Shown here one piece after another: positions 1 through 64,000 of a DNA stretch of 64,000 nucleotides (position 1 is the first letter of the stretch; each line of letters begins with the position of its first letter). Under the pieces are notes generated by a model. That model worked only from the letters and a program-made list of their open reading frames with translations. It was not told the origin of the DNA and made no database searches. The position numbers and the translations under genes are program-made. The stretch comes from Diphasiastrum complanatum (Eukaryota; Streptophyta; Lycopodiopsida; Lycopodiales; Lycopodiaceae). The DNA lies in the NCBI GenBank assembly GCA_029204225.1, contig CM055094.1, positions 16,512,609-16,576,608 of the forward strand, given 5' to 3'.

Positions 1-248
1 TGTAACGAAGTTTGGTTAAGTTTGTTGATGTATGTTTTGTTGGAGGGAAGTCACCCACATCGGGACCCCGGATCTGGCATGGCGCCAGGTTGGATCTCAA
101 TGTTGGTTTTCGGAACTTCAAGTTGGTTAAGTCTGATCGTTGTTGGCGAGTTGGCTGCTTGTATGTCAAGTGTGTTTGGATGGCAAGAGTTGAAGGCTGG
201 GAAGCTAAGTCGTGGTTCCCGGCTCCCTTTTGGGATGCCTGCGCTACA
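1..248 (+). mobile_element. Element T copy T0, 3' end only (LTR-A tail)
   Basis: The window opens inside a type-A LTR that ends with GCGCTACA at 248. The rest of this copy lies to the left of the window. The sequence matches the last 248 bp of the other LTR-A copies, for example the end of T1 at 5034. Confidence 0.9.
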
Positions 249-279
249 GCTGGCGTCCAGGGATACGACGCTCAGCTAT
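249..279 (+). repeat. 31-nt inter-element spacer (inverted LTR fragment)
   Basis: These 31 nt run from GCTGG to GCTAT between the end of one LTR-A and the start of the next LTR-B. The reverse complement matches an LTR-A interior segment (4425-4455 in T1) at 29 of 31 positions. The same spacer recurs at 5035-5065, 9089-9119, 10875-10905, 15661-15691, 20437-20467, 25223-25253, 35267-35297, 39298-39328, 44073-44103, 48848-48878 and 53607-53637. It is inverted at 59280-59310. Its outer 5-mers may be the target duplications of two founding insertions (inference). Confidence 0.9.
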
Positions 280-506
280 TGTTGTAAAGCTACCTTTACA
301 AGCTTTACTCCCGGTGCCAGCTATGTCCCCGGCGCCAGCAGCGCCCCTGCGGCTCTCGGCGCCACTTGACCAGAATCCAGCCGGTGCGAAGTTCCTATGG
401 CTGAAAATCTTTGATCGGTTTTAGCGGAGTCCAGAGAGCTCAGATCGATGTGCAATCACCTCACACGATCTAGGCATGATTAAAGGAAGCTGGAGGATCA
501 ATAGAA

Positions 507-561
507 TCTAGAGAGAGAAAATGACTTTCTAGAAAGAGGAAATCCTAGAGAGAGAAAAATG
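507..561 (+). promoter_or_regulatory. GAGA-rich duplicated tract in the LTR
   Basis: Two close copies of CTAGAGAGAGAAAA about 37 nt apart flank a TTTCTAGAAA palindrome. The tract is present in both LTR types and in every unit. GAGA tracts are known binding sites for plant BBR/BPC factors. A promoter or enhancer role here is inference from the motif and its place upstream of the putative polyadenylation signal. Confidence 0.4.
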
Positions 562-775
562 TGCTTTACTAGCTTGGGTAGAGTGCTTGGTATGAGGGGG
601 GGTGCCGAATCACACCAATACTACAGGGGAGTGCGGCTTGCGACTCAGGGCGAGCTCCAACCAAGTCTCAGCCTCCCTTGCTGGAATGTTGTCATGGCTC
701 TCGCCTTGGCATGCGCTAGCGCCCTAGAGACTAGGGTCGGTCACACACTTAAAATGTAACCTTCTCAGATTTATC

Positions 776-781
776 AATAAA
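776..781 (+). promoter_or_regulatory. Candidate LTR polyadenylation signal (AATAAA)
   Basis: AATAAA lies near the middle of the LTR, in the context TTTATCAATAAAGTGGG. It is kept at the same place in nearly all A and B LTRs. Retrotransposon transcripts end in the 3' LTR downstream of such a signal. A second AATAAA-like motif (ATCAATAAAATC) occurs only in LTR-A, near 4049, so the choice is not certain. Confidence 0.5.
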
Positions 782-1491
782 GTGGGATTTTTCTGAAACT
801 GACTCTGATTACCTTCTGGGTTTCAGTGTTCGGTCAAAGCGCCAGTTGTAAGGCCGCTTCAAAATTTTTAAGTTGGCACATACCTGAGGTTCGTATACCG
901 GGACGCCAGTGGTATGCCGTCGGGACCATTTGGTCAAAGGCGCCAGCGGTATGCTGTCGGGACCATTTGGTCCAAGAGCTGGTTGTTTCCATATCTGTCG
1001 CGGCTTGTGGTTCTGAGTGTTCCTTGCATGAACGTGAATGGGTTAAGCTCTTGGGGAACGGGCTCTGGCCTGTCGGCTGAGTTGGATTGCTTGCTTGGGT
1101 GGAAGTTACCTGTTTATGGCTGTCCAGTCTGGCGTGGCGCCAGGTTGGCTTCCAGTGCTCGTGACGAAGCTTTCAGTTGGTTAAGTCTGATGTAAGTTTG
1201 ACCGCTTGCTTGGAATGGATGTTACTCGTTTGTAACGAAGCTTCGAGTTGGTCAAGTTTGATGTATGTCGGGCGGCTTGCTTGGAGGGAAGTCACCCACA
1301 TTGGGAGCCCCGATCTGGCATGGCGCCAGGTTGAATCTCAATGTTGGCTTTCGGAACTTCAAGTGGGTTAAGTCTGATCGTTGTTGGCGAGTTGGCTGCT
1401 TGTATGTCAAGTGGGTTTGGATGGCAAGAGTTGAAGGCCGGGAAGCTAAGTCGCGGTTCCCGGCTCCCTTTGGGATGCCTGCGCTACATAA

Positions 1492-1503
1492 GGTATCAGA
1501 GCC
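1492..1503 (+). other. Primer-binding site of element T (tRNA-iMet)
   Basis: GGTATCAGAGCC lies 3 nt downstream of the 5' LTR. It matches the plant initiator-methionine tRNA 3' end, which primes many plant LTR retrotransposons. The LTR-proximal base differs from the longer TGGTATCAGAGCC match seen in element G. The site recurs after each complete LTR-B. Confidence 0.85.
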
Positions 1504-1578
1504 GACTGGGCGTTCAGCTATGCGGATCTCACAGAAATGGCCACGGTTTGGGGTTCATCAAGACAACTGTCGTGCAAG

Positions 1579-1964
1579 GTGCTGTCCACAGTGTAAGCAC
1601 GGGTGCGTCCACGGTCGGGGTGGTCGGCAGAACGGGGGACGTGATGAGTCAAAGTGCTGCCCTCGAGGTGTAAGCACGGTCAGTTCTCGCGGTTCGGGCG
1701 TGGCGCCGTCTGCACGTAGGACGGATGAGGCAAAGTGTTGCCTAGGTAGGTGAAAGCACGGTCTATGACTTGTGGGGTGCGGGGCGACATATTCGAACAG
1801 TACGGGTTAACCATTGATACAGAGATGCTGCTCGAATTCGGGTGTAAAGCATGGGTGGTTAGCTGCCGGTGCGGGATAGCTGCCGATCGTTTAGCTATAA
1901 GGGCTATCGACCAAAAAGTGGTGGGGCGTGACTGAGGCAATGTGTTGCTTAATGGTGAAATCAC
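1579..1964 (+). repeat. Leader array of five hairpin-like modules
   Basis: Five short modules share the pattern GTGCTG - palindromic core - (G)GTG(T)AAAGCAC. They lie at 1579-1600, 1654-1677, 1735-1759, 1825-1852 and 1942-1964. Each has a potential GTGCT/AGCAC outer stem. Cores include CTCGAG, CCTAGG and CGAATTCG. Module 4 reads ATGCT...AGCAT, a paired change that keeps the stem. Modules are usually preceded by GAGGCAAA-like sequence and followed by CGG. The same five modules occur in element G at 30414-30799 on the minus strand. Position just after the primer site suggests an RNA packaging or dimer structure (inference). Confidence 0.65.
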
Positions 1965-2888
1965 GGGTAGTCGGAGGGGTGTCCTATGTGGGCCGATTTT
2001 GTGATCGATTTGTATGGGCGCGGCCAGGCAAAGGTCCGTTGGCAGGACCATCTCAAAGGGGGGACCTTGTCTATGTTACTTGTTAGTAAACCTGCCTGAG
2101 TGTCTTACTGGTATGTATTCGTGGTGAGTCTTAGTACTCGTGCTTTGCCTGGTTTGCATGATTGCTTGTTATACAAGGAGCTGATGGCTCGAGAAGGAAC
2201 CTTTCTTTTGAAGGCTGATACCATCAAACAAAGAGGACTACAAAATCTGTGGGCGGATTTGCAGTTCAAGTACTCACACGTGAACGGCAACGAAACGACT
2301 CTATGTTTGCAAAGGATGGATGGCTAGCCTGTTTCTTGGGTTAGTTTCATTTGCGACAATGCCCACCAGACGTAAGCAGAAAGCCAAAAGTTGGAAAGGG
2401 CAATTTCAGGGGAGATCTTCTATGGAGTAGTTGGTCTTCATTTTGGGACGGCCACCTTCGGAACTGAAACTCACTGCGCATGGGTGATATCCAGTATCAG
2501 TTGGGTTTTTCCTCAAAGGGGAAAGACTAGGATTCTCTTCAAAGATTGGCAACAGGTTGGATCAAGCCATAATCCTAGCAGATGGGAAGCAAAGTCTTGG
2601 AAAAGCTTTTTGTTTGAAGAACTCTACTCTAACTCCGATCAGCTGATTTTATAAGTGGAGGGGAACTATCACACGCACCTCTCTCTTGGGACAAATTTTG
2701 AATGAAAGTTGATCAAAACGGCGGCAAAGTCAAGGTCACCTAGCCATACTCACATGAGGAGACTGGCGAACTTTGGACCTAATAAGTTGACAAGTTTTTG
2801 TTGTGGAAAGGAAAGCTTGTTATAGGCTTTCTCTCGACCAGCAATGATGAGGAAACATATGAGTACGCTGGCTTGTGTTACGTGTAAC

Positions 2889-3250
2889 GCAGCTGATCGA
2901 TGAAGGAACTGTGAAAGTTGAGTCTTGCATGAGAGACTTGGTATTTCGAACGGACGCTAAGGGACAGTTCGCGTTGATATCGGACTAGTGCAGTCTCTTG
3001 GTGCATGTGTCTGATTCAAAGAGAGCTACTTGAAGCCAAGCTCGATGTACGCTTCTTGTTTTGACTGTGAGGCAACTGACTAGTGATGGAATTGTGAAAG
3101 TCAGGTTTTGCGCGACGGACATGGTGCTTCAAACAAACGCGAAGAGATAGTTCGGATTCGGATCAAACTGGTGCGACCCTTTGGCTTTCCACGAGGTCAA
3201 TGGTTACATTTGGGCTGATTCAAAAGATCTACTTCAAGCTAAGTGAGAGG
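2889..3250 (+). repeat. Diverged ~180-nt tandem duplication in the internal region
   Basis: Unit 1 (2889-3071) and unit 2 (3072 to about 3250) align through shared blocks: GCARCTGA, a GTGAAAGT core, a GAC-TGGT block, ACGC-AAG-GA-AGTTCG, and CTGATTCAAA near each 3' end. They are far more diverged from each other than any two array units. The duplication therefore predates array amplification. No function is assigned. Confidence 0.6.
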
Positions 3251-3803
3251 TGCATTGCGGAGTACTCAATCTTTGCCTACCTTACAGAGCCAAGATGGAA
3301 AAGTATCAAGATCAGACTGGGACAAGGAGAGAAACCATGGTGCAGAAGCAACAAGGCACAGAGTGGACCACAAAGTGGGCAATCAAACGATAAATCCTTT
3401 GGCTCAGGGAGCCTTGATACCTGTGCGGAACTTATCAAATCTGGAGCTCAGGGAGCTCAATACAAAGTGCATCAAGGACAAATCAGGACCTCAAAGGAGT
3501 TCCCAAGTCGAAAGTCAGAAGCGACAGGGGCAAACATTTCAAAGAAAGGCCTCTGTCATAAGGTTCCTGGGTTTTACGAAAGCGATATCAAATCTACGCT
3601 TTTCCCAGACAAAGAGGTATGTTCAAGTTATGTAATTTTTCAATACAAAGAGCTGAGCCTCCGACTTGTGGTGTGCCACCTTCAATGTTAATAAAAAGTG
3701 CCCAGTAAATTGGGTACTGTGCCAAGTAGCTTAGATGTATAATATTTTAATTTGGAGACAGCTTTACTTTAATCTGACATCTGATGAGGACATCAGACTT
3801 TAT

Positions 3804-3816
3804 AAAGGTGGCACGG
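3804..3816 (+). other. Putative polypurine tract of element T
   Basis: AAAGGTGGCACGG lies immediately before the 3' LTR start at 3817. It is less purine-pure than the tract of element G. It occupies the plus-strand priming position and is preceded by GATGAGGACATCAG, a block also found next to the polypurine tract of element G. Confidence 0.55.
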
Positions 3817-3849
3817 TGTTGTAAAGCTACATTTACAAGCTTTGCTTCC

Positions 3850-3935
3850 GGCGCCAGCAGCGCCCCTGCTGCTCCCGGCGCCAACGGCGCCTGCGCCGCT
3901 CTCGGCGCCATTGTGACCAGAATCCAGCCGGCGCC
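3850..3935 (+). repeat. GGCGCC palindrome cluster in LTR-A
   Basis: Five GGCGCC hexamers occur in 86 bp, starting at 3850, 3877, 3886, 3904 and 3930, within a CCTGCTGC / GCGCC-rich stretch. LTR-B has fewer in the matching place. The stretch is CpG-dense and self-complementary, so it could be a methylation target or a structured U3 region (inference). Confidence 0.6.
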
Positions 3936-4424
3936 AAGTTCCTATGGCTGAAAATCTTTATTCGGTTCTAGCGGAGCCCAGATAGCTCAGATCGATGTGC
4001 AATCACCTCACACGATCTAGGCATGATTAAAATAAGCCCGGAGATCAATAAAATCTAGAGAGAGAAAATGACTTTCTAGAAAGACAGAATCCTAGAGAGA
4101 GAAAAACGTGCTTTACGAGCTTGGCTAGAGTGCTTGGTATGAGGGGGGGAGTCGAATCACACCAATACTATAGGGGAGTGCGGGTTGCGACTCAGGGCGA
4201 GCTCCAACCAAGTCTCAGCCTCCCTTGCTGGAATGTTGTCATGGCTCTCGCCTTGGCATGCTAGCGCCCCGGAGACTAGGGTCGGTCACACACTTGAAAT
4301 GTAACCTTCTCAAATTTATGATTAAAGTGGGATTTTCCTCAAACTGACTCTGATTACCTTTTGGGTTTCAGTGTTCGGTAAAAGCGCCAGTTGTAAGGCC
4401 GCTTCCAAATTTTTAACTTGGCAC

Positions 4425-4455
4425 ATAGCTGAGGGTCGTATCCCGGGACGCCAGC
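4425..4455 (+). repeat. LTR segment that is the parent of the inverted spacer
   Basis: This 31-nt LTR-A segment is the reverse complement of the spacer at 5035-5065, with two mismatches. The matching segment in LTR-B (5670-5699 region) fits less well, so the spacer derives from a type-A-like LTR. Confidence 0.85.
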
Positions 4456-4523
4456 GGTATGCCGTCGGGACCATTCGGTCCGCGGCGCCAGCGGTATGCT
4501 GTCGGGACCATTTGGTCCAGGAA
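4450..4523 (+). repeat. 37-nt tandem duplication with GGACC...GGTCC hairpins in the LTR
   Basis: The two copies, 4450-4486 and 4487-4523, both read GCCAGCGGTATG then (C/T)GTCGGGACCATT(C/T)GGTCC. Each contains a small perfect inverted repeat GGACC-ATTY-GGTCC. The pair is present in almost all LTRs of both types. Confidence 0.75.
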
Positions 4524-4710
4524 CTGGTTGTTTCAATATCTGTCGCGGCTTGTGGTTCTGAGTGTTCCTTGCATGAACGTGAATGGGTTAAGCTCTTGGG
4601 GAACGGGCTCTAACTTGTCGGCTGAGTTGGATGGCTTGCTTGGGTGCCTGTTACCTGTTTATGGCTGACCAGTCTGGCGTGGCGCCAGGTTGGCTTCCAG
4701 CGCTCGTGAC

Positions 4711-4935
4711 GAAGCTTTCAGTTGGTTAAGTCTGATGTAAGTCAGACCGCTTGCTTGGAATGGACGTTACTCGTTTGTAACGAAGCTTCGAGTTGGTTAA
4801 GTTTGATGTATGTCGGGCGGCTTGCTTGGAGGGAAGTCACCCACATCGGGACCCCGGATCTGGCATGGCGCCAGGTTGGATCTCAATGTTGGTTTTCGGA
4901 ACTTCAATTTGGTTAAGTCTGATCGTTGTTGGCGA
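4711..4935 (+). repeat. Three degenerate copies of a GAAGCTT-AGTTGGTTAAG box in the LTR 3' half
   Basis: Copies begin near 4711, 4782 and 4899 and share the order GAAGCTT(or GAACTT), AGTTGGTTAAGT, TGAT, GCTTG. Between the first two lies a hairpin, CGTTAC-TCGTTT-GTAACG (about 4764-4782). The LTR grew in part by local duplication. Confidence 0.6.
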
Positions 4936-5065
4936 GTTGGCTGCTTGTATGTCAAGTGTGTTTGGATGGCAAGAGTTGAAGGCTGGGAAGCTAAGTCGTG
5001 GTTCCCGGCTCCCTTTTGGGGTGCCTGCGCTACAGCTGGCGTCCAGGGATACGACGCTCAGCTAT

Positions 5066-8000
5066 TGTTGTAAAGCTACCTTTACAAGCTTTACTCCCGG
5101 TGCCAGCTATGTCCCCGGCGCCAGCAGCGCCCCTGCGGCTCTCGGCGCCACTTGACCAGAATCCAGCCGGTGCGAAGTTCCTATGGCTGAAAATCTTTGA
5201 TCGGTTTTAGCGGAGTCCAGAGAGCTCAGATCGATGTGCAATCACCTCACACGATCTAGGCATGATTAAAGGAAGCTGGAGGATCAATAGAATCTAGAGA
5301 GAGAAAATGACTTTCTAGAAAGAGAAAATCCTAGAGAGAGAAAAATGTGCTTTACTAGCTTGGGTAGAGTGCTTGGTATGAGGGGGGGTGCCGAATCACA
5401 CCAATACTACAGGGGAGTGCGGCTTGCGACTCAGGGCGAGCTCCAACCAAGTCTCAGCCTCCCTTGCTGGAATGTTGTCATGGCTCTCGCCTTGGCATGC
5501 GCTAGCGCCCTAGAGACTAGGGTCGGTCACACACTTAAAATGTAACCTTCTCAGATTTATCAATAAAGTGGGATTTTTCTGAAACTGACTCTGATTACCT
5601 TCTGGGTTTCAGTGTTCGGTCAAAGCGCCAGTTGTAAGGCCGCTTCAAAATTTTTAAGTTGGCACATACCTGAGGTTCGTATACCGGGACGCCAGTGGTA
5701 TGCCGTCGGGACCATTCGGTCCGCGGCGCCAGCGGTATGCTGTCGGGACCATTTGGTCCAAGAGCTGGTTGTTTCCATATCTGTCGCGGCTTGTGGTTCT
5801 GAGTGTTCCTTGCATGAACGTGAATGGGTTAAGCTCTTGGGGAACGGGCTCTGGCCTGTCGGCTGAGTTGGATTGCTTGCTTGGGTGGAAGTTACCTGTT
5901 TATGGCTGTCCAGTCTGGCGTGGCGCCAGGTTGGCTTCCAGTGCTCGTGACGAAGCTTTCAGTTGGTTAAGTCTGATGTAAGTTTGACCGCTTGCTTGGA
6001 ATGGATGTTACTCGTTTGTAACGAAGCTTCGAGTTGGTCAAGTTTGATGTATGTCGGGCGGCTTGCTTGGAGGGAAGTCACCCACATTGGGAGCCCCGAT
6101 CTGGCATGGCGCCAGGTTGAATCTCAATGTTGGCTTTCGGAACTTCAAGTGGGTTAAGTCTGATCGTTGTTGGCGAGTTGGCTGCTTGTATGTCAAGTGG
6201 GTTTGGATGGCAAGAGTTGAAGGCCGGGAAGCTAAGTCGCGGTTCCCGGCTCCCTTTGGGATGCCTGCGCTACATAAGGTATCAGAGCCGACTGGGCGTT
6301 CAGCTATGCGGATCTCACAGAAATGGCCACGGTTTGGGGTTCATCAAGACAACTGTCGTGCAAGGTGCTGTCCACAGTGTAAGCACGGGTGCGTCCACGG
6401 TCGGGGTGTTCGGCAGAACGGGGGACGTGATGAGTCAAAGTGCTGCCCTCGAGGTGTAAGCACGGTCAGTTCTCGCGGTTCGGGCGTGGCGCCGTCTGCA
6501 CGTAGGACGGATGAGGCAAAGTGTTGCCTAGGTAGGTGAAAGCACGGTCTATGACTTGTGGGGTGCGGGGCGACATATTCGAACAGTACGGGTTAACCAT
6601 TGATACAGAGATGCTGCTCGAATTCGGGTGTAAAGCATGGGTGGTTAGCTGCCGGTGCGGGATAGCTGCCGATCGTTTAGCTATAAGGGCTATCGACCAA
6701 AAAGTGGTGGGGCGTGACTGAGGCAATGTGTTGCTTAATGGTGAAATCACGGGTAGTCGGAGGGGTGTCCTATGTGGGCCGATTTTGTGATCGATTTGTA
6801 TGGGCGCGGCCAGGCAAAGGTCCGTTGGCAGGACCATCTCAAAGGGGGGACCTTGTCTATGTTACTTGTTAGTAAACCTGCCTGAGTGTCTTAATGGTAT
6901 GTATTCGTGGTGAGTCTTAGTACTCGTGCTTTGCCTGGTTTGCATGATTGCTTGTTATACAAGGAGCTGATGGCTCGAGAAGGAACCTTTCTTTTGAAGG
7001 CTGATACCATCAAACAAAGAGGACTACAAAATCTGTGGGCGGATTTGCAGTTCAAGTACTCACACGTGAACGGCAACGAAACGACTCTATGTTTGCAAAG
7101 GATGGATGGCTAGCCTGTTTCTTGGGTTAGTTTCATTTGCGACAATGCCCACCAGACGTAAGCAGAAAGCCAAAAGTTGGAAAGGGCAATTTCAGGGGAG
7201 ATCTTCTATGGAGTAGTTGGTCTTCATTTTGGGACGGCCACCTTCGGAACTGAAACTCACTGCGCATGGGTGATATCCAGTATCAGTTGGGTTTTTCCTC
7301 AAAGGGGAAAGACTAGGATTCTCTTCAAAGATTGGCAACAGGTTGGATCAAGCCATAATCCTAGCAGATGGGAAGCAAAGGAGAGAAACCATGGTGCAGA
7401 AGCAACAAGGCACAGAGTGGACCACAAAGTGGGCAATCAAACGATAAATCCTTTGGCTCAGGGAGCCTTGATACCTGTGCGGAACTTATCAAATCTGGAG
7501 CTCAGGGAGCTCAATACAAAGTGCATCAAGGACAAATCAGGACCTCAAAGGAGTTCCCAAGTCGAAAGTCAGAAGCGACAGGGGCAAACATTTCAAAGAA
7601 AGGCCTCTGTCATAAGGTTCCTGGGTTTTACGAAAGCGATATCAAATCTACGATTTTCCCAGACAAAGAGGTATGTTCAAGTTATGTAATTTTTCAATAC
7701 AAAGAGCTGAGCCTCCGACTTGTGGTGTGCCACCTTCAATGTTAATAAAAAGTGCCCAGTAAATTGGGTACTGTGCCAAGTAGCTTAGATGTATAATATT
7801 TTAATTTGGAGACAGCTTTACTTTAATCTGACATCTGATGAGGACATCAGACTTTATAAAGGTGGCACGGTGTTGTAAAGCTACATTTACAAGCTTTGCT
7901 TCCGGCGCCAGCAGCGCCCCTGCTGCTCCCGGCGCCAACGGCGCCTGCGCCGCTCTCGGCGCCATTGTGACCAGAATCCAGCCGGCGCCAAGTTCCTATG

Positions 8001-9088
8001 GCTGAAAATCTTTATTCGGTTCTAGCGGAGCCCAGATAGCTCAGATCGATGTGCAATCACCTCACACGATCTAGGCATGATTAAAATAAGCCCGGAGATC
8101 AATAAAATCTAGAGAGAGAAAATGACTTTCTAGAAAGACAGAATCCTAGAGAGAGAAAAACGTGCTTTACGAGCTTGGCTAGAGTGCTTGGTATGAGGGG
8201 GGGAGTCGAATCACACCAATACTATAGGGGAGTGCGGGTTGCGACTCAGGGCGAGCTCCAACCAAGTCTCAGCCTCCCTTGCTGGAATGTTGTCATGGCT
8301 CTCGCCTTGGCATGCTAGCGCCCCGGAGACTAGGGTCGGTCACACACTTGAAATGTAACCTTCTCAAATTTATCAATAAAGTGGGATTTTCCTCAAACTG
8401 ACTCTGATTACCTTTTGGGTTTCAGTGTTCGGTAAAAGCGCCAGTTGTAAGGCCGCTTCCAAATTTTTAACTTGGCACATAGCTGAGGGTCGTATCCCGG
8501 GACGCCAGCGGTATGCCGTCGGGACCATTCGGTCCGCGGCGCCAGCGGTATGCTGTCGGGACCATTTGGTCCAGGAACTGGTTGTTTCAATATCTGTCGC
8601 GGCTTGTGGTTCTGAGTGTTCCTTGCATGAACGTGAATGGGTTAAGCTCTTGGGGAACGGGCTCTAACCTGTCGGCTGAGTTGGATGGCTTGCTTGGGTG
8701 CCTGTTACCTGTTTATGGCTGACCAGTCTGGCGTGGCGCCAGGTTGGCTTCCAGCGCTCGTGACGAAGCTTTCAGTTGGTTAAGTCTGATGTAAGTCAGA
8801 CCGCTTGCTTGGAATGGACGTTACTCGTTTGTAACGAAGCTTCGAGTTGGTTAAGTTTGATATATGTCGGGCGGCTTGCTTGGAGGGAAGTCACCCACAT
8901 CGGGACCCCCGATCTGGCATGGCGCCAGGTTGGATCTCAATGTTGGTTTTCGGAACTTCAATTTGGTTAAGTCTGATCGTTGTTGGCGAGTTGGCTGCTT
9001 GTATGTCAAGTGTGTTTGGATGGCAAGAGTTGAAGGCTGGGAAGCTAAGTCGTGGTTCCCGGCTCCCTTTTGGGATGCCTGCGCTACA
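5066..9088 (+). mobile_element. Element T copy T2, short internally rearranged copy
   Basis: Parts are 5' LTR 5066-6274, internal region 6275-7870 (about 730 bp shorter than in T1) and 3' LTR 7871-9088. Both LTRs are full length. The spacers 5035-5065 and 9089-9119 lie on either side. The five leader modules are kept. Confidence 0.88.
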
Positions 9089-30799: not shown

Positions 30800-30875
30800 C
30801 TTGCGCAACGGTTGTCCTGACAAATCCCAAAAACGTGGCCATCCCTGTGAGACTTGCGTAGCTGACCGGCTAGTC

Positions 30876-38200: not shown

Positions 38201-39297
38201 GTTCCTATGGCTGAAAATCTTTATTCGGTTCTAGCGGAGCCCAGATAGCTCAGATCGATGTGCAATCACCTCACACGATCTAGGCATGATTAAAATAAGC
38301 CCGGAGATCAATAAAATCTAGAGAGAGAAAATGACTTTCTAGAAAGACAGAATCCTAGAGAGAGAAAAACGTGCTTTACGAGCTTGGCTAGAGTGCTTGG
38401 TATGAGGGGGGGAGTCGAATCACACCAATACTATAGGGGAGTGCGGGTTGCGACTCAGGGCGAGCTCCAACCAAGTCTCAGCCTCCCTTGCTGGAATGTT
38501 GTCATGGCTCTCGCCTTGGCATGCTAGCGCCCCGGAGACTAGGGTCGGTCACACACTTGAAATGTAACCTTCTCAAATTTATCAATAAAGTGGGATTTTC
38601 CTCAAACTGACTCTGATTACCTTTTGGGTTTCAGTGTTCGGTAAAAGCGCCAGTTGTAAGGCCGCTTCCAAATTTTTAACTTGGCACATAGCTGAGGGTC
38701 GTATCCCGGGACGCCAGCGGTATGCCGTCGGGACCATTCGGTCCGCGGCGCCAGCGGTATGCTGTCGGGACCATTTGGTCCAGGAACTGGTTGTTTCAAT
38801 ATCTGTCGCGGCTTGTGGTTCTGAGTGTTCCTTGCATGAACGTGAATGGGTTAAGCTCTTGGGGAACGGGCTCTAACCTGTCGGCTGAGTTGGATGGCTT
38901 GCTTGGGTGCCTGTTACCTGTTTATGGCTGACCAGTCTGGCGTGGCGCCAGGTTGGCTTCCAGCGCTCGTGACGAAGCTTTCAGTTGGTTAAGTCTGATG
39001 TAAGTCAGACCGCTTGCTTGGAATGGACGTTACTCGTTTGTAACGAAGCTTCGAGTTGGTTAAGTTTGATGTATGTCGGGCGGCTTGCTTGGAGGGAAGT
39101 CACCCACATCGGGACCCCGGATCTGGCATGGCGCCAGGTTGGATCTCAATGTTGGTTTTCGGAACTTCAAGTTGGTTAAGTCTGATCGTTGTTGGCGAGT
39201 TGGCTGCTTGTATGTCAAGTGTGTTTGGATGGCAAGAGTTGAAGGCTGGGAAGCTAAGTCGTGGTTCCCGGCTCCCTTTTGGGATGCCTGCGCTACA
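35298..39297 (+). mobile_element. Element T copy T8, aberrant 5' half
   Basis: The 5' LTR begins at 35298 but becomes unlike its siblings from about 35560. Sequence from about 36060 to 36332 has no clear match elsewhere in the window. Ordinary internal sequence resumes at about 36333 and runs to 38079. The 3' LTR, 38080-39297, is normal. The spacer 39298-39328 follows. The first part may be an older variant or a poorly polished assembly patch. Confidence 0.8.
36060..36332. other. ~270-bp sequence not shared with other units
   Basis: Only short echoes of the LTR are visible here (CTGTCGGCTGA, ACTTGCTTGAATGGATG). The rest is AT-richer and is not found in any other copy in the window. It takes the place of the LTR-B 3' part, the primer site and the hairpin leader. 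No coding potential is seen. Confidence 0.6.
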
Positions 39298-53637: not shown

Positions 53638-55380
53638 TGTTGTAAAGCTACCTTTACAAGCTTTACTCCCCGTGCCAGCTATGTCCCCGGCGACAGCAGC
53701 GCCCCTGCGGCTCTCGGCGCCACTGTGACCAGAATCTAGCCGGTGCGAAGTTCCTATGGCTGAAAATCTTTGATCGGTTTTAGCGGAGTCCAGAGAGCTC
53801 AGATCGATGTGCAATCACCTCACACGATCTAGGCATGATTAAAGGAAGCTGGAGGATCAATAGAATCTAGAGAGAGAAAATGACTTTCTAGAAAGAGAAA
53901 ATCCTAGAGAGAGAAAAATGTGCTTTACTAGCTTGGGTAGAGTGCTTGGTATGAGGGGGGGTGCCGAATCACACCAATACTACAGGGGAGTGCGGCTTGC
54001 GACTCAGGGCGAGCTCCAACCAAGTCTCAGCCTCCCTTGCTGGAATGTTGTCATGGCTCTCGCCTTGGCATGCGCTAGCGCCCTAGAGACTAGGGTCGGT
54101 CACACACTTAAAATGTAACCTTCTCAGATTTATCAATAAAGTGGGATTTTTCTGAAACTGACTCTGATTACCTTCTGGGTTTCAGTGTTCGGTCAAAGCG
54201 CCAGTTGTAAGGCCGCTTCAAAATTTTTAAGTTGGCACATACCTGAGGTTCGTATACCGGGACGCCAGTGGTATGCCGTCGGGACCATTCGGTCCGCGGC
54301 GCCAGCGGTATGCTGTCGGGACCATTTGGTCCAAGAGCTGGTTGTTTCCATATCTGTCGCGGCTTGTGGTTCTGAGTGTTCCTTGCATGAACGTGAATGG
54401 GTTAAGCTCTTGGGGAACGGGCTCTGGCCTGTCGGCTGAGTTGGATTGCTTGCTTGGGTGGAAGTTACCTGTTTATGGCTGTCCAGTCTGGCGTGGCGCC
54501 AGGTTGGCTTCCAGTGCTCGTGACGAAGCTTTCAGTTGGTTAAGTCTGATGTAAGTTTGACCGCTTGCTTGGAATGGATGTTACTCGTTTGTAACGAAGC
54601 TTCGAGTTGGTCAAGTTTGATGTATGTCGGGCGGCTTGCTTGGAGGGAAGTCACCCACATTGGGAGCCCCGATCTGGCATGGCGCCAGGTTGAATCTCAA
54701 TGTTGGCTTTCGGAACTTCAAGTGGGTTAAGTCTGATCGTTGATCTCACACGTGAACGACAACGAAACGACTCTATGTTTGCAAAGATGGATGGCTAGCC
54801 TGTTTCTTGGGTTAGTTTCATTTGCGACAATGCCCACGAGACGTAAGCAGAAAGTCAAAAGTTGGAAAGGGCAATTTCAGGGGAGATCTTCTATGGAGTA
54901 GTTGGTCTTCATTTTGGGACGGCCACCTTCGGAACTGAAACTCACTGCGCATGGGTGATATCCAGTATCAGTTGGGTTTTTCCTCAAAGGGGAAAGACTA
55001 GGATTCTCTTCAAAGATTGGCAACAGGTTGGATCAAGCCATAATCCTAGCAGATGGGAAGCAAAGTCTTGGAAAAGCTTTTTGTCCGAAGAACTCTACTC
55101 TAACTCCGATCAGCTGATTTTATAAGTGGAGGGGAACTATCACACGCACCTCTCTCTTGGGACAAATTTTGAATGAAAGTTGATCAAAACGGCGGCAAAG
55201 TCAAGGTCACCTAGCCATACTCACATGAGGAGACTGGCGAACTTTGGACCTAATAAGTTGACAAGTTTTTGTTGTGGAAAGGAAAGCTTGTTATAGGCTT
55301 TCTCTCGACCAGCAATGATGAGGAAACATATGAGTACGCTGGCTTGTGTTACGTGTAACGCAGCTGATCGCTGAAGGAAC
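53638..55380 (+). mobile_element. Element T copy T12, partial, last plus-strand unit
   Basis: Most of a type-B LTR (53638 to about 54742) is joined to a middle piece of the internal region (about 54743-55380). That piece shares single-base markers with the minus-strand copies M1 and M2 rather than with T9-T11. An example is GATCGCTGAAGG near 55370, where the plus copies read GATCGATGAAGG. It may have come from the other arm. The unit ends at the inversion junction. Confidence 0.85.
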
Positions 55381-55383
55381 CCG
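55378..55383. other. Inversion junction between plus and minus arrays
   Basis: Left of the junction the plus-strand internal region ends ...GAAGGAAC. Right of it a minus-strand LTR-A begins CCGCACTCCCC, whose siblings read CGCAACCCGCACTCC (near 60162). AAC is common to both parents, a 3-nt microhomology. All units to the right are inverted. Confidence 0.85.
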
Positions 55384-58300
55384 CACTCCCCTATAGTATT
55401 GGTGTGATTCGACTCCCCCCCTCATACCAAGCACTCTAGCCAAGCTCGTAAGGCACGTTTTTCTCTCTCTAGGATTCTGTCTTTCTAGAAAGTCATTTTC
55501 TCTCTCTAGATTTTATTGATCTCCGGGCTTATTTTAATCATGCCTAGATCGTGTGAGGTGATTGCACATCGATCTGAGCTATCTGGGCTCCGCTAGAACC
55601 GAATAAAGATTTTCAGCCATAGGAACTTGGCGCCGGCTGGATTCTGGTCACAATGGCGCCGAGAGCGGCGCAGGCGCCGTTGGCGCCGGGAGCAGCAGGG
55701 GCGCTGCTGGCGCCGGAAGCAAAGCTTGTAAATGTAGCTTTACAACACCGTGCCACCTTTATAAAGTCTGATGTCCTCATCAGATGTCAGATTAAAGTAA
55801 AGCTGTCTCCAAATTAAAATATTATACATTTAAGCTACTTGGCATTGTACCCAATTTACTGGGCACTTTTTATTAACATTGAAGGTGGCACACCACAAGT
55901 CGGAGGCTCAGCTCTTTGTATTGAAAAAATTACATAACTTGAACATACCTCTTTGTCTGGGAAAAGCGTAGATTTGATATCGCTTTCGTAAAACCCAGGA
56001 ACCTTATGACAGAGGCCTTTCTTTGAAATGTTTGCCCCTGTCGATCCTGACTTTCGACTTGGGAACTCCTTTGAGGTCATGATTTGTCCTTGATGCACTT
56101 TGTATTGAGCTCCCTGAGCTCCAGATTTGATAAGTTCCGCACAGGTATCAAGGCTCCCTGAGCCAAAGGATTTATCGTTTGATTGCCCACTTTGTGGTCC
56201 ACTCTGTGCCTTGTTGCTTCTGCACCATGGTTTCTCTCCTTGTCCCAGTCTGATCTTGATACTTTTCCATCTTGGCTCTGTAAGGTAGGCAAAGATTGAG
56301 TACTCCGCAATGCACCTCTCACTTAGCTTGAAGTAGATCTTTTGAATCAGCCCAAATGTAACCATTGACCTCGTGGAAAGCCAAAGGGTCGCACCAGTTT
56401 GATCCGAATCCGAACTATCTCTTCGCGTTTGTTTGAAGCACCATGTCCGTCGCGCAAAACTTGACTTTCACAATTCCATCACTAGTCAGTTGCCTCACAG
56501 TCAAAACAAGAAGTGTACATCGAGCTTGGCTTCAAGTAGCTCTCTTTGAATCAGACACATGCACCAAGAGTCTGCACTAGTCCGATATCAACGCGAACTG
56601 TCCCTTAGCGTCCGTTCGAAATACCAAGTCTCTCATGCAAGACTCAACTTTCACAGTTCCTTCAGCGATCAGCTGCGTTACACGTAACACAAGCCAGCGT
56701 ACTCATATGTTTCCTCATCATTGCTGGTCGAGAGAAAGCCTATAACAAGCTTTCCTTTCCACAACAAAAAGTTGTCAACTTATTAGGTCCAAAGTTCGCC
56801 AGTCTCCTCATGTGAGTATGGCTAGGTGACCTTGACTTTGCCGCCGTTTTGATCAACTTTCATTCAAAATTTGTCCCAAGAGAGAAGTGCGTGTGATAGT
56901 TTCCCTCCACTTATAAAATCAGCTGATCGGAGTTAGAGTAGAGTTCTTCGAACAAAAAGCTTTTCCAAGACTTTGCTTCCCATCTGCTAGGATTATGGCC
57001 TGATCCAACCTGTTGCCAATCTTTGAAGAGAATCCTAGTCTTTCCCCTTTGAGGAAAAACCCAACTGATACTGGATATCACCCATGCGCAGTGAGTTTCA
57101 GTTCCGAAGGTGGCCGTCCCAAAATGAAGACCAACTACTCCATAGAAGATCTCCCCTGAAATTGCCCTTTCCAACTTTTGACTTTCTGCTTACGTCTGGT
57201 GGGCATTGTCGCAAATGAAACTAACCCAAGAAATAGGCTAGCCATCCATCCTTTGCAAACATAGAGTCGTTTCGTTGCCGTTCACGTGTGAGTACTTGAA
57301 CTGCAAATCCGCCCACAGATTTTGTAGTCCTCTTTGTTTGATGGTATCAGCCTTCAAAAGAAAGGTTCCTTCTCGAGCCATCAGCTCCTTGTATAACAAG
57401 CCAAACCAGGCAAAGCACGAGTACTAAGACTCACCACGAATACATACCAGTAAGACACTCAGGCAGGTTTACTAACAAGTAACATAGACAAGGTTCCCCC
57501 TTTGAGATGGTCCTGCCAACGGACCTTTGCCTGGCCGCGCCCATACAAATCGATCACAAAATCGGCCCACATAGGACACCCCTCCGACTACCCGTGATTT
57601 CACCATTAAGCAACACATTGCCTCAGTCACGCCCCACCACTTTTTGGTCGATAGCCCTTATAGCTAAACGATCGGCAGCTATCCCGCACCGGCAGCTAAC
57701 CACCCATGCTTTACACCCGAATTCGAGCAGCATCTCTGTATCAATGGTTAACCTGTACTGTTCGAATATGTCGCCCCGCACCCCACAAGTCATAGACCGT
57801 GCTTTCACCTACCTAGGCAACACTTTGCCTCATCCGTCCTACGTGCAGACGGCGCCACGCCCGAACCGCGAGAACTGACCGTGCTTACACCTCGAGGGCA
57901 ACACTTTGACTCATCACGTCCCCCGTTCTGCCGACCACCCCGACCGTGGACGCACCCGTGCTTACACTGTGGACAGCACCTTGCACAACAGTTGTCTTGA
58001 TGAACCCCAAACCCTGGCCATTTCTGTGAGATCCGCATAGCTGAACGCCCAGTCGGCTCTGATACCTTAGGTAGCGCAGGCATCCCAAAGGGAGCCGGGA
58101 ACCACGACTTAGCTTCCCAGCCTTCAACTCTTGCCATCCAAACCCACTTGACATACAAGCAGCCAACTCGCCAACAACGATCAGACTTAATCCACTTGAA
58201 GTTCCGAAAGCCAACATTGAGATTCAACCTGGCGCCATGCCAGATCGGGGCTCCCAATGTGGGTGACTTCCCTCCAAGCAAGCCGCCCGACATACATCAA

Positions 58301-59279
58301 ACTTGACCAACTCGAAGCTTCGTTACAAACGAGTAACATCCATTCCAAGCAAGCGGTCAAACTTACATCAGACTTAACCAACTGAAAGCTTCGTCACGAG
58401 CACTGGAAGCCAACCTGGCGCCACGCCAGACTGGACAGCCATAAACAGGTAACTTCCACCCAAGCAAGCAATCCAACTCAGCCGACAGGCCAGAGCCCGT
58501 TCCCCAAGAGCTTAACCCATTCACGTTCATGCAAGGAACACTCAGAACCACAAGCCGCGACAGATATGGAAACAACCAGCTCTTGGACCAAATGGTCCCG
58601 ACAGCATACCGCTGGCGCCGCGGACCGAATGGTCCCGACGGCATACCACTGGCGTCCCGGTATACGAACCTCAGGTATGTGCCAACTTAAAAATTTTGAA
58701 GCGGCCTTACAACTGGCGCTTTGACCGAACACTGAAACCCAGAAGGTAATCAGAGTCAGTTTCAGAAAAATCCCACTTTATTGATAAATCTGAGAAGGTT
58801 ACATTTTAAGTGTGTGACCGACCCTAGTCTCTAGGGCGCTAGCGCATGCCAAGGCGAGAGCCATGACAACATTCCAGCAAGGGAGGCTGAGACTTGGTTG
58901 GAGCTCGCCCTGAGTCGCAAGCCGCACTCCCCTGTAGTATTGGTGTGATTCGGCACCCCCCCTCATACCAAGCACTCTACCCAAGCTAGTAAAGCACATT
59001 TTTCTCTCTCTAGGATTTTCTCATTCTAAAACGTCATTTTCTCTCTCTAGATTCTATGGATCCTCCAGCTTCCTTTAATCATGCCTAGATCGTGTGAGGT
59101 GATTGCACATCGATCTGAGCTCTATGGACTCCGCTAAAACCGATCAAAGATTTTCAGCCATAGGAACTTCGCACCGGCTGGATTCTGGTCACAGTGGCGC
59201 CGAGAGCCGCAGGGGCGCTGCTGGCGCCGGGGACATAGCTGGCACGGGGAGTAAAGCTTGTAAAGGTAGCTTTACAACA
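55381..59279 (-). mobile_element. Element T copy M1 (minus arm), partial 3' LTR
   Basis: In genome order the parts are part of the 3' LTR (type A) 55381-55747, internal region 55748-58069 and 5' LTR (type B) 58070-59279. The five-module leader lies at about 57590-57985. Markers such as TTAAATGTATAAT and TGTACAC in the internal region group it with T9-T11. The spacer 59280-59310 follows. Confidence 0.87.
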
Positions 59280-59310
59280 ATAGCTGAGCGTCGTATCCCT
59301 GGACGCCAGC
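59280..59310 (-). repeat. 31-nt spacer, minus arm
   Basis: This is the same spacer as in the plus arm, inverted, between the 5' LTR of M1 and the 3' LTR of M2. Its presence shows that the minus arm came from the same array and not from an independent insertion. Confidence 0.9.
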
Positions 59311-62300
59311 TATAGCGCAGGCATCCCAAAAGGGAGCCGGGAACCACGACTAAGCTTCCCAGCCTTCAACTCTTGCCATCCAAACACACTTGACATACAA
59401 GCAGCCACCTCGCCAACAACGATCAGACTTAACCAACTTGAAGTTCCGAAAACCAACATTGAGATCCAACCTGGCGCCATGCCAGATCCGGGGTCCCGAT
59501 GTGGGTGACTTCCCTCCAAGCAAGCCGCCCGACATACGTCAAACTTAACCAACTCGAGGCTTCGTTACAAACGAGTAACGTCCATTCCAAGCAAGCGGTC
59601 TGACTTACATCAGACTTAACCAACTGAAAGCTTCGTCACGAGCGCTGGAAGCCAACCTGGCGCCACGCCAGACTGGTCAGCCATAAACAGGTAACAGGCA
59701 CCCAAGCAAGCCATCCAACTCAGCCGACAGGTTAGAGCCCGTTCCCCAAGAGCTTAACCCATTCACGTTCATGCAAGGAACACTCAGAACCACAAGCCGC
59801 GACAGATATTGAAACAACCAGTTCCTGGACCAAATGGTCCCGACAGCATACCGCTGGCGCCACGGACCGAATGGTCCCGACGGCATACCGCTGGCGTCCC
59901 GGGATACGACCCTCAGCTATGTGCCAAGTTAAAAATTTGGAAGCGGCCTTACAACTGGCGCTTTTACCGAACACTGAAACCCAAAAGGTAATCAGAGTCA
60001 GTTTGAGGAAAATCCCACTTTATTGATAAATTTGAGAAGGTAACATTTCAGGTGTGTGACCGACCCTAGTCTCCGGGGCGCTAGCATGCCAAGGCGAGAG
60101 CCATGACAACATTCCAGCAAGGGAGGTTGAGACTTGGTTGGAGCTCGCCCTGAGTCGCAACCCGCACTCCCCTATAGTATTGGTGTGATTCGACTCCCCC
60201 CCTCATACCAAGCACTCTAGCCAAGCTCGTAAAGCACGTTTTTCTCTCTCTAGGATTTTGTCTTTCTAGAAAGTCATTTTCTCTCTCTAGATTTTATTGA
60301 TCTCCGGGCTTATTTTAATCATGCCTAGATCGTGTGAGGTGATTGCACATCGATCTGAGCTATCTGGGCTCCGCTAGAACCGAATAAAGATTTTCAGCCA
60401 TAGGAACTTGGCGCCGGCTGGATTCTGGTCACAATGGCGCCGAGAGCGGCGCAGGCGCCGTTGGCGCCGGGAGCAGCAGGGGCGCTGCTGGCGCCGGAAG
60501 CAAAGCTTGTAAATGTAGCTTTACAACACCGTGCCACCTTTATAAAGTCTGATGTCCTCATCAGATGTCAGATTAAAGTAAAGCTGTCTCCAAATTAAAA
60601 TATTATACATTTAAGCTACTTGGCATTGTACCCAATTTACTGGGCACTTTTTATTAACATTGAAGGTGGCACACCACAAGTCGGAGGCTCAGCTCTTTGT
60701 ATTGAAAAAATTACATAACTTGAACATACCTCTTTGTCTGGGAAAAGCGTAGATTTGATATCGCTTTCGTAAAACCCAGGAACCTTATGACAGAGGCCTT
60801 TCTTTGAAATGTTTGCCCCTGTCGCTTCTGACTTTCGACTTGGGAACTCGTTTGAGGTCCTGATTTGTCCTTGATGCACTTTGTATTGAGCTCCCTGAGC
60901 TCCAGATTTGATAAGTTCCGCACAGGTATCAAGGCTCCCTGAGCCAAAGGATTTATCGTTTGATTGCCCACTTTGTGGTCCACTCTGTGCCTTGTTGCTT
61001 CTGCACCATGGTTTCTCTCCTTGTCCCAGTCTGATCTTGATACTTTTCCATCTTGGCTCTGTAAGGTAGGCAAAGATTGAGTACTCCGCAATGCACCTCT
61101 CACTTAGCTTGAAGTAGATCTTTTGAATCAGCCCAAATGTAACCATTGACCTCGTGGAAAGCCAAAGGGTCGCACCAGTTTGATCCGAATCCGAACTATC
61201 TCTTCGCGTTTGTTTGAAGCACCATGTCCGTCGCGCAAAACTTGACTTTCACAATTCCATCACTAGTCAGTTGCCTCACAGTCAAAACAAGAAGTGTACA
61301 TCGAGCTTGGCTTCAAGTAGCTCTCTTTGAATCAGACACATGCACCAAGAGTCTGCACTAGTCCGATATCAACGCGAACTGTCCCTTAGCGTCCGTTCGA
61401 AATACCAAGTCTCTCATGCAAGACTCAACTTTCACAGTTCCTTCAGCGATCAGCTGCGTTACACGTAACACAAGCCAGCGTACTCATATGTTTCCTCATC
61501 ATTGCTGGTCGAGAGAAAGCCTATAACAAGCTTTCCTTTCCACAACAAAAACTTGTCAACTTATTAGGTCCAAAGTTCGCCAGTCTCCTCATGTGAGTAT
61601 GGCTAGGTGACCTTGACTTTGCCGCCGTTTTGATCAACTTTCATTCAAAATTTGTCCCAAGAGAGAGGTGCGTGTGATAGTTCCCCTCCACTTATAAAAT
61701 CAGCTGATCGGAGTTAGAGTAGAGTTCTTCGGACAAAAAGCTTTTCCAAGACTTTGCTTCCCATCTGCTAGGATTATGGCTTGATCCAACCTGTTGCCAA
61801 TCTTTGAAGAGAATCCTAGTCTTTCCCCTTTGAGGAAAAACCCAACTGATACTGGATATCACCCATGCGCAGTGAGTTTCAGTTCCGAAGGTGGCCGTCC
61901 CAAAATGAAGACCAACTACTCCATAGAAGATCTCCCCTGAAATTGCCCTTTCCAACTTTTGACTTTCTGCTTACGTCTGGTGGGCATTGTCGCAAATGAA
62001 ACTAACCCAAGAAACAGGCTAGCCATCCATCCTTTGCAAACATAGAGTCGTTTCGTTGCCGTTCACGTGTGAGTACTTGAACTGCAAATCCGCCCACAGA
62101 TTTTGTAGTCCTCTTTGTTTGATGGTATCAGCCTTCAAAAGAAAGGTTCCTTCTCGAGCCATCAGCTCCTTGTATAACAAGCCAAACCAGGCAAAGCACG
62201 AGTACTAAGACTCACCACGAATACATACCAGTAAGACACTCAGGCAGGTTTACTAACAAGTAACATAGACAAGGTTCCCCCTTTGAGATGGTCCTGCCAA

Positions 62301-64000
62301 CGGACCTTTGCCTGGCCGCGCCCATACAAATCGATCACAAAATCGGCCCACATAGGACACCCCTCCGACTACCCGTGATTTCACCATTAAGCAACACATT
62401 GCCTCAGTCACGCCCCACCACTTTTTGGTCGATAGCCCTTATAGCTAAACGATCGGCAGCTATCCCGCACCGGCAGCTAACCACCCATGCTTTACACCCG
62501 AATTCGAGCAGCATCTCTGTATCAATGGTTAACCCGTACTGTTCGAATATGTCGCCCCGCACTCCACAAGTCATAGACCGTGCTTTCACCTACCTAGGCA
62601 ACACTTTGCCTCATCCGTCCTACGTGCAGACGGCGCCACGTCCGAACCGCGAGAACTGACCGTGCTTACACCTCGAGGGCAGCACTTTGACTCATCACGT
62701 CCCCCGTTCTGCCGACCACCCCGACCGTGGACGCACCCGTGCTTACACTGTGGACAGCACCTTGCACAACAGTTGTCTTGATGAACCCCAAACCCTGGCC
62801 ATTTCTGTGAGATCCGCATAGCTGAACGCCCAGTCGGCTCTGATACCTTATGTAGCGCAGGCATCCCAAAGGGAGCCGGGAACCACGACTTAGCTTCCCA
62901 GCCTTCAACTCTTGCCATCCAAACCCACTTGACATACAAGCAGCCAACTCGCCAACAACGATCAGACTTAACCCACTTGAAGTTCCGAAAGCCAACATTG
63001 AGATTCAACCTGGCGCCATGCCAGGTCGGGGCTCCCAATGTGGGTGACTTCCCTCCAAGCAAGCCGCCCGACATACATCAAACTTGACCAACTCGAAGCT
63101 TCGTTACAAACGAGTAACATCCATTCCAAGCAAGCGGTCAAACTTACATCAGACTTAACCAACTGAAAGCTTCGTCACGAGCACTGGAAGCCAACCTGGC
63201 GCCACGCCAGACTGGACAGCCATAAACAGGTAACTTCCACCCAAGCAAGCCATCCAACTCAGCCGACAGGCCAGAGCCCGTTCCTCAAGAGCTTAACCCA
63301 TTCACGTTCATGCAAGGAACACTCAGAACCACAAGCCGCGACAGATATGGAAACAACCAGCTCTTGGACCAAATGGTCCCGACAGCATACCGCTGGCGCC
63401 GCGGACCGAATGGTCCCGACGGCATACCACTGGCGTCCCGGTATACGAACCTCAGGTATGTGCCAACTTAAAAATTTTGAAGCGGCCTTACAACTGGCGC
63501 TTTGACCGAACACTGAAACCCAGAAGGTAATCAGAGTCAGTTTCAGAAAAATCCCACATTATTGATAAATCTGAGAAGGTTACATTTTAAGTGTGTGACC
63601 GACCCTAGTCTGTAGGGCGCTAGCGCATGCCAAGGCGAGAGCCATGACAACATTCCAGCAAGGGAGGCTGAGACTTGGTTGGAGCTCGCCCTGAGTCGCA
63701 AGCCGCACTCCCCTGTAGTATTGGTGTGATTCGGCACCCCCCTCATACCAAGCACTCTACCCAAGCTAGTAAAGCACATTTTTCTCTCTCTAGGATTTTC
63801 TCTTTCTAAAAAGTCATTTTCTCTCTCTAGATTCTATGGATCCTCCAGCTTCCTTTAATCATGTCTAGATCGTGTGAGGTGATTGCACATCGATCTGAGC
63901 TCTCTGGACTCCGCTAAAACCGATCAAAGATTTTCAGCCATAGGAACTTCGCACCGGCTGGATTCTGGTCACAGTGGCGCCGAGAGCCGCAGGGGCGCTG
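59311..64000 (-). mobile_element. Element T copy M2 (minus arm), cut by window end
   Basis: In genome order the parts are 3' LTR (type A) 59311-60528, internal region 60529-62850 and 5' LTR (type B) from 62851 past the window end. Its period relative to M1 is about 4780 bp. The internal region is otherwise like that of T9-T11. Confidence 0.88.

Follow-up and report, generated by a model that had tools for sequence, protein, structure and literature searches.

A local tandem array of a non-coding LTR retrotransposon in Diphasiastrum complanatum and its probable origin by double insertion into an antisense LTR

The 64,000-nucleotide stretch of the Diphasiastrum complanatum assembly analysed here (the window) contains a genuine tandem array, whose unit is a whole non-coding LTR retrotransposon plus a 31-nt spacer. 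The spacer is a 31-nt antisense piece of the family's own LTR, bounded by the 5-mers GCTGG and GCTAT, and the array probably arose when two elements inserted into an antisense LTR at a distance of 31 nt from each other and unequal exchange followed. In the proposed sequence of events, two same-orientation members of one non-coding family would have entered a single LTR, in antisense, of an older copy of that family. The 5-bp targets would have been GCTGG for element A and GCTAT for element B, to give A-(31 nt of host LTR)-B. Chimeric units would then have come from unequal homologous exchange of B with A, on sister or homologous chromatids, and more exchange would have multiplied the whole unit with its spacer until the local array numbered about 31 units. 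Deletions, one inversion and insertions of other elements would have occurred afterwards.

Composition of the array

Start coordinates and open reading frames bear out the original prediction of 12 plus-strand and two minus-strand copies of one non-coding LTR element, mostly with the order LTR-internal-LTR and with ~98-99.9% similarity among units (Table 1). The repeat period of undamaged adjoining units is 4,759-4,786 bp, and the spacer, predicted to be invariant, is indeed identical at 13/13 window sites, 12 of them on the plus strand and one on the minus strand. At all 13 a 3' LTR lies on one side and a 5' LTR on the other (at 249 only the 3' LTR end is present, and at 10875 only 3' LTR scraps), which supports the predicted amplification as whole element plus spacer, unlike tandems in which neighbours share an LTR. 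The further claim that every copy keeps both LTRs does not hold: both are full-length, small indels aside, in nine of the 12 plus-strand units, and units 3, 8 and 12 and the first minus-strand unit are damaged. Nor do array copies alone fill the window, because a separate LTR element is inserted in unit 7.

The units form head-to-tail, homogenised repeats. Adjacent units 9-11 differ at only 1-5 internal positions, a run of three near-identical neighbours, whereas neighbours 4-5 and 5-6 show 23 and 19 internal differences, compared with 9 for the distant pair 1-11, so that adjacency does not always mean likeness. Past the window, the same contig carries a lone LTR flanked by two spacers (C3:16581634-16582905).

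The longest open stretch of unit 10 is 197 codons, and two tested array-unit open reading frames (162 and 163 aa) gave no Pfam match; the window as a whole contains no Rfam match at gathering score and no tRNA. In the genome, RuBisCO large-subunit fragments give three matches, in keeping with a plant. Directly after the 5' LTR of the array unit stands GGTATCAGAGCC, which we take to be the primer-binding site, and AAGGTGGGGTGGA precedes the 3' LTR starts of family copies elsewhere. With two LTRs, a primer-binding site, a polypurine tract and no coding domains, the element has the features of a non-coding LTR retrotransposon of the LARD-like class. The element inserted in unit 7 is flanked by a 5-bp target duplication, GTGAT (26552-26556 and 31811-31815). 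Its 737-aa open frame has no Pfam match to reverse transcriptase or integrase, and a zinc knuckle in it scores below its Pfam cut-off. As an LTR element with gag and without reverse transcriptase or integrase, it is of the TR-GAG type. A second, separate insertion of this gag-protease element lies at C7:56548756-56554012.

Table 1 Features of the window; each plus-strand unit begins at the start of its 5' LTR.
Feature	Position	Strand	Details
3' end of a 3' LTR	12-248	+	window base 1 is the contig's first base, preceded by a 10,000-N run
First 31-nt spacer	249-279	+	antisense LTR positions about 609-639
Further 31-nt spacers (starts)	5035, 9089, 10875, 15661, 20437, 25223, 35267, 39298, 44073, 48848, 53607	+	
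Unit 1	280-5034	+	complete; 5' LTR 280-1488, internal 1489-3816, 3' LTR 3817-5034
Unit 2	5066-9088	+	internal deletion at about 7380
Unit 3	9120-10874	+	1.75-kb remnant; 5' LTR, 395 bp internal, 3' LTR scraps
Unit 4	10906-15660	+	complete
Unit 5	15692-20436	+	complete
Unit 6	20468-25222	+	complete
Unit 7	25254-35266	+	split by gag-protease LTR element
Inserted 5.25-kb LTR element	26557-31810	-	920-bp LTRs identical
737-aa open frame of inserted element	27844-30057	-	Retrotrans_gag, aspartic protease (Pfam)
Unit 8	35298-39297	+	cut 5' LTR; 289-bp foreign piece at 36044-36332
Unit 9	39329-44072	+	complete
Unit 10	44104-48847	+	complete; reference unit of the analysis
Unit 11	48879-53606	+	complete
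Unit 12	53638-55380	+	cut at LTR position 1105, fused to internal fragment (inversion junction)
Minus unit 1	55378-59279	-	only 370 bp of 3' LTR left
31-nt spacer	59280-59310	-	identical
Minus unit 2	59311-64000	-	5' LTR reaches C3:16576667, just outside the window

Spacer origin and the array edge

When the spacer is compared with 11 3' LTRs of the window in reverse complement, it shows 2/31 mismatches to eight and 3/31 to three, and 2000 shuffled spacers never reached fewer than 9 mismatches to the LTR. Both bounding 5-mers are recurrent insertion sites of the family elsewhere: the junction of host LTR, GCTGG and element start occurs at 20 genome sites (two being array-edge sites), and that of host, GCTAT and element start at six sites outside the array. 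Each target has also been used singly, with GCTGG on each side of the insertion at C1997:33630-38697 and GCTAT on each side of that at C1:92976496-92981670. The two 5-mers lie 26 bp apart in the LTR and are each used in both orientations; among 38 sampled own-family flanks, 34 fall within LTRs, with one base struck repeatedly. If these two self-LTR targets form an insertion hotspot, they would make close same-site doublets likely, and we tentatively suggest that the family may thereby carry a built-in seed for tandem arrays, from which self-targeted double insertion and exchange could repeatedly start new satellites.

One array edge, on contig C2593, runs host LTR-GCTGG-element A-spacer-chimera-spacer. 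The left junction of element A reads CATACCGCTGG and then LTR start, and its right side CTACA and then GCTGGCGTCC, the spacer, so that GCTGG stands both before A's 5' end and at its 3' end. A's 5' LTR is scrambled, and the GCTGG junction and the body of A are probably one element. The C7 copy of this edge is rearranged further. The unit after A is 5' like the array and 3' like A: over its first 600 internal bp it differs from A at 36/599 sites and from unit 10 at 4/600, further on it differs from A at 2/200 and then at none over ~1,790 internal bp; its 3' LTR shows no mismatches to A's, with small gaps. This B5'/A3' chimera between two spacers documents expansion by exchange between the two copies. 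The exchange is read from the chimera and from the three near-identical adjacent units, and the double insertion is supported by the spacer's origin, the single use of each target elsewhere and GCTGG both before and behind A; how exactly the exchange proceeded, presumably in an unequal and homologous manner, is the less direct part.

For element B, GCTAT is present on the left only and the right edge is missing. Its expected right junction, CTACA-GCTAT-GTGCC, was not found at the array locus, and a genome search that tolerated up to two mismatches gave one match only, an insertion on C1 separate from the array; B would have had a right-hand target duplication of its own. By K2P distance, the array 3' LTR lies closer to A's 3' LTR (0.025) than to the 5' LTR of its own unit (0.0625), and B's original 3' LTR is therefore not recognisable with certainty. 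The two LTRs within an array unit differ by about 6%, whereas the figure is 0.2-0.3% for the two dispersed copies that were measured. This LTR5/LTR3 distance was considered as a measure of age and rejected, since the array 3' LTR groups with that of element A.

Alternative origins and genomic placement

An unlikely alternative starts from a single GCTAT insertion. A tandem duplication using the 3-bp microhomology GCT would have fused its right flank (the GCT of the target duplication) to host DNA located 26 bp upstream, and the resulting dimer would have grown into the array. The spacer does start with GCT and end with GCTAT, and such a junction would produce an identical 31-nt stretch; however, it would have to fall by chance exactly at the GCTGG boundary, a family target in 18 other places, and at the C2593 edge GCTGG flanks A on its 5' as well as its 3' side. 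Less probable still is a two-LTR circle or reverse-transcription concatemer, with a junction that holds primer-binding-site sequence, that was integrated or rolled out as an array. It would account for whole units retaining both LTRs, and an 11-nt spacer stretch (10 matching) resembles the region after the primer-binding site; yet 127 of the 2000 shuffled spacers fit that region equally and the antisense LTR match is far better (2-3/31 mismatches), so this region was rejected as the spacer's source. Against the circle also stand the divergence of about 6% between a unit's LTRs and the descent of the C2593-edge units from different elements.

It is likewise highly improbable that assembly produced most of the array by repeating a single locus. 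The window's contig has been put on C3 although it overlaps C7 perfectly, errors like those of raw reads occur at contig ends, and 10,000-N runs break the array; but the units differ mutually and carry private deletions, they recur in contigs of different structure, and the gag-protease element has inserted separately in the window and on C7. The artefact is probably the contig's placement, not the array. The contig sits between two 10,000-N runs on C3, and a 27.8-kb dovetail links its right part to C7, with no difference along at least 18.6 kb of this overlap. The contig thus probably belongs to C7 and was wrongly scaffolded; two independent loci on C3 and C7 are judged less likely than a single locus. 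The far array edge is rearranged (C7:56342501-56342906). The antisense-LTR spacer, the mosaic of two elements in the units and the probable misplacement of the contig go beyond the original prediction.

The 1.74-Gb assembly contains 31 exact copies of the spacer, in addition to five array variants, in one C7 region, the window's contig and one unplaced contig. Adding the variants and removing five double-counted overlap spacers gives ~31 different units in total. The array illustrates reasonably well how a tandem repeat looks at an early stage, as predicted, but falls short of satellite scale: high copy number in long arrays is not seen in this assembly, in which gaps or collapse could hide more. 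None of the features tested supports a centromere, sex- or B-chromosome role.

Relation to known tandem repeats and meaning

On the proposed origin, the array would be a variation on double-insertion tandems, already known as a kind. As described by McGurk and Barbash in 2018 (Genome Res), an element that inserts twice at the same site or close to it reportedly produces a head-to-tail dimer that serves as a satellite substrate. This work is cited in passages of PMC9659126 and PMC12368964. On that reading the array would share with such tandems the paired insertion of one element near one site and the dimer as seed; unlike them, its targets lie 26 bp apart inside the family's own antisense LTR, the intervening 31 nt are retained in every unit, and a chimeric exchange product survives at one edge.

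PMC11899658 describes plant LTR-retrotransposon tandems of variable copy number whose neighbours share one LTR, a single insertion being favoured by the authors for two rice loci; those units are likewise head-to-tail, whereas the array's LTRs are not shared. In the same family, C1 47.7676-47.7801 Mb carries a shared-LTR-like tandem with a spacing of 3,809 bp. Maize CRM1TR and CRM4TR, described in PMC3648361, have monomers of about 0.7-1.4 kb that consist of an LTR-UTR segment and are explained by internal deletions; they resemble the array as all-LTR-retrotransposon local tandems with later retrotransposon insertions and exchange of variant sequence, but here the unit is a whole element plus spacer. 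According to the nested-autoinsertion survey PMC6911290, LTRs are not commonly targeted and the sites of 26 look-alike nested pairs are always at least 50 bp apart; here too elements enter older copies of their own family, in contrast mostly within LTRs and repeatedly at the same base. The kangaroo endogenous-retrovirus megasatellite (Koga 2023), which PMC11899658 places in centromeres and likens to shared-LTR tandems, is similarly an LTR element amplified in tandem with recognisable provirus structure, and differs in scale and host.

The array itself most likely has no function for the cell. The first steps of tandem repeats are usually lost because later exchange erases them; here they can be read because the locus preserves the piece of target, both target 5-mers, element A in unexchanged form and one product of exchange, which makes the array a readable case of tandem-repeat birth rather than an established high-copy satellite. 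The LTR-LTR divergence of an array unit need not equal its age, and contigs of such arrays may end up scaffolded onto the wrong chromosome. If the reading of the two self-LTR targets as a hotspot is true, it would provide a route for an LTR retrotransposon to start new satellites repeatedly.

The array in the window and its extent in the genome

The window array comprises 12 plus-strand and two minus-strand units laid out as a 5' LTR (~1.21 kb), an internal region (~2.32 kb) and a 3' LTR (~1.22 kb), with undamaged neighbours repeating head to tail every 4,759-4,786 bp and a 31-nt spacer that is identical at all 13 of its places. Both LTRs are full-length in nine of the 12 plus-strand units, the other three and minus unit 1 being damaged; later events include deletions in units 2, 3 and 8 and an inversion at 54.7-55.4 kb. 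The longest open stretch in unit 10, our reference, is 197 codons. Two tested ORFs of the element (162 and 163 aa) gave no Pfam match, and within the window neither an Rfam family at the gathering score nor a tRNA in the tRNA search was found.

Across the assembly (1,744,706,496 bases in 5,176 contigs), the exact spacer occurs at 31 places, namely 16 on C3, 13 on C7 and two on C2593. Another 21 places carry one mismatch; sorted by position and sequence from the match rows, five are C7 array units and 16 are scattered, with letter changes of the LTR source. Five spacers are counted twice through an overlap between C3 and C7, and removing these double counts leaves ~31 different units (~0.15 Mb), although N runs may conceal more. 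The two C2593 spacers may represent another haplotype of the C7 array edge. Because only ~31 different units were counted, the high-copy satellite of the original prediction is not borne out: its tandem of whole element plus spacer is real but local, and its satellite scale, like its centromere, sex-chromosome and B-chromosome readings, finds no support in this analysis.

The window corresponds to C3:16512609-16576608, and the C3 piece bearing it (16512609-16588393) has an N run of exactly 10,000 on each side; the window start is therefore a contig end. Its last 27.8 kb aligns antiparallel to C7:56343252-56370900, at whose aligned end (56370900) C7 reaches another 10,000-N run. The overlap shows zero differences from 16564637 at the latest to 16583264 and differences only towards both ends, which is the pattern that two contigs from one place would give. 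A very recent duplication is a possible alternative. The N runs are probably scaffold gaps, since all four are equal in length and error-rich sequence adjoins them. We infer that the C7 gap, or the sequence next to it, is where the window's contig should lie, and this contig was probably scaffolded onto the wrong chromosome.

Positions of elements, insertions and related loci in the assembly
Feature	Position	Length	Strand	Remarks
gag-protease LTR element (in unit 7)	window 26557-31810	5,254 bp	minus	two identical 920-bp LTRs; target duplication GTGAT
Second gag-protease insertion in an array unit	C7:56548756-56554012			
Foreign stretch within an array unit	C3:16577863-16581535	3.67 kb		overlap with a 1,017-aa frame carrying copia-type gag
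Foreign piece in unit 8	window 36044-36332	289 bp		183 bp identical to the end of the 3.67-kb foreign stretch
Single whole element	C1997:33630-38697			GCTGG on both sides
Single whole element	C1:92976496-92981670			GCTAT on both sides
LTR sites of the array family	C1:47767557-47780141			constant 3,809-bp spacing; polypurine tract before three

Origin of the spacer and the preserved array edge

The spacer matches the reverse-complemented LTR interior with two mismatches in eight and three in three of the 11 window LTRs in which it was found, whereas 2,000 shuffled spacers compared with both strands of the unit never fell below nine. This antisense match runs from GCTGG to GCTAT. Had two founders, element A at GCTGG and element B at GCTAT, inserted in the antisense LTR of an older family copy (the host LTR), the intervening piece would be exactly the spacer, i.e., 21 bp plus two 5-bp target copies. 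The junction of host LTR, GCTGG and element start is present at 20 places (≤2 mismatches), two of them array edges (C7:56572565 and C2593:16074), and the same site in opposite orientation (CCAGC) at 10; the GCTAT junction gave 38 rows (32 in the array, six outside it) and its opposite orientation (ATAGC) two places. These places likely include copies of one another, and the counts do not equal independent events, because several identical insertion flanks are common to C1 at ~13.9-14.05 Mb and 44.01-44.13 Mb, regions whose likeness may stem from a large duplication or from duplicated assembly. Both targets are recurrent and rarely filled, as 5,417 LTR sites still read through the first target (≤1 mismatch).

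In the 12.5 of 49.5 kb of C2593 examined, the order in array sense is host LTR (opposite orientation), GCTGG, element A (5' LTR scrambled), spacer, second unit, spacer and an array-type 5' LTR. Over its first 600 internal bases, the second unit shows 36 differences from A in 599 sites and four from unit 10 in 600; beyond them, it differs from A at two of 200 sites and then at none in ~1,790 internal bases, and its 3' LTR matches A's with zero mismatches and small gaps. As a plausible mechanism, one unequal exchange between B on the left and A on the right would yield A-spacer-(B5'/A3')-spacer-B. The C2593 order is the product expected of such an exchange and would preserve the first steps of the array, whose seed is explained nearly to the base. 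Over 1,204 bp, the C2593 host flank shares 99.9% identity with the C7 array edge, but the adjoining elements are arranged differently, so either two haplotypes carry different edges or one edge was assembled in two versions.

Mosaic units and later insertions

Among 11 array 5' and 11 array 3' LTRs (cut or damaged window LTRs excluded), mean K2P distances are 0.0063 within 5' LTRs, 0.0105 within 3' LTRs and 0.0625 between them, and the 3' LTRs group with the 3' LTR of A (0.025) rather than with their 5' counterparts in the array. LTR pairs of the two dispersed elements examined differ by 0.0016 and 0.0033. The 3' LTR of unit 1 departs from that of A at 21 sites in the first 600 bases and two in the last 418, an end at which unit 10 departs at eight. 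The units are therefore mosaics, and we rejected the 6% difference between the LTRs of a unit as an insertion age. Comparison of nine internal regions gave 1-5 differing sites between adjacent units 9-11 and 6-34 for every other pair; local exchange is shown for this one run only, because the neighbours 4/5 (23 sites) and 5/6 (19 sites) differ more than the distant pair 1/11 (nine sites).

The array units were hit twice by the gag-protease element, whose 737-aa frame contains gag and an aspartic protease and gave no polymerase match. Its leader shares 91.6% identity over 548 bp with the beginning of the array internal region, so the two elements probably had replication proteins in common. At C7:56607026 and C7:56717661, the GCTGG target carries a right junction that ends GCGCAACA and resembles the terminus of the gag-protease LTR, as would be consistent with a common integrase.

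Target preference and relation to known tandems

We sampled the 13 bases preceding LTR starts, not at random but from the rows that come first in genome order (C1 and the beginning of C2): 100 of 1,382 rows starting with G/C and, from the first 100 of 3,148 starting with A/T, 39. Of those 100 A/T rows, 56 were set aside on inspection as the polypurine tract upstream of 3' LTRs or near variants, and a script removed five more that resembled it, one perhaps wrongly. Own-family flanks (≤1 mismatch) make up 38 of the 139 sampled and 27 of 119 different flanks, against 10 of 695 shuffled controls; 34 of the 38 lie within LTRs and eight at the two targets. With the gag-protease element included in the reference, the G/C rows alone gave 28 of 100 versus two of 300 shuffled. 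Sampled flanks outside the family favour G/C at each end of the 5-bp target, a preference with which GCTGG agrees and GCTAT agrees on one side only. According to a 12-plant survey, nesting does not commonly target LTRs, and the sites in 26 look-alike nested pairs are always at least 50 bp apart (PMC6911290). The LTR sites on C1 at constant spacing probably represent a conventional tandem with shared LTRs.

A double-insertion route to tandems was reportedly proposed by McGurk and Barbash (2018). In plant LTR-retrotransposon tandems, as described in PMC11899658, LTRs are common to adjoining units, and a single insertion is favoured for two rice loci. CRM1TR and CRM4TR are likewise retrotransposon-derived tandems, although their unit, as portrayed in PMC3648361, differs from ours. 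Our narrow literature search, incomplete in coverage, found no title or abstract opening reporting an array seeded by two insertions in an element's own LTR. The window array is a variant, not previously found in the literature searched, of a known kind of tandem.
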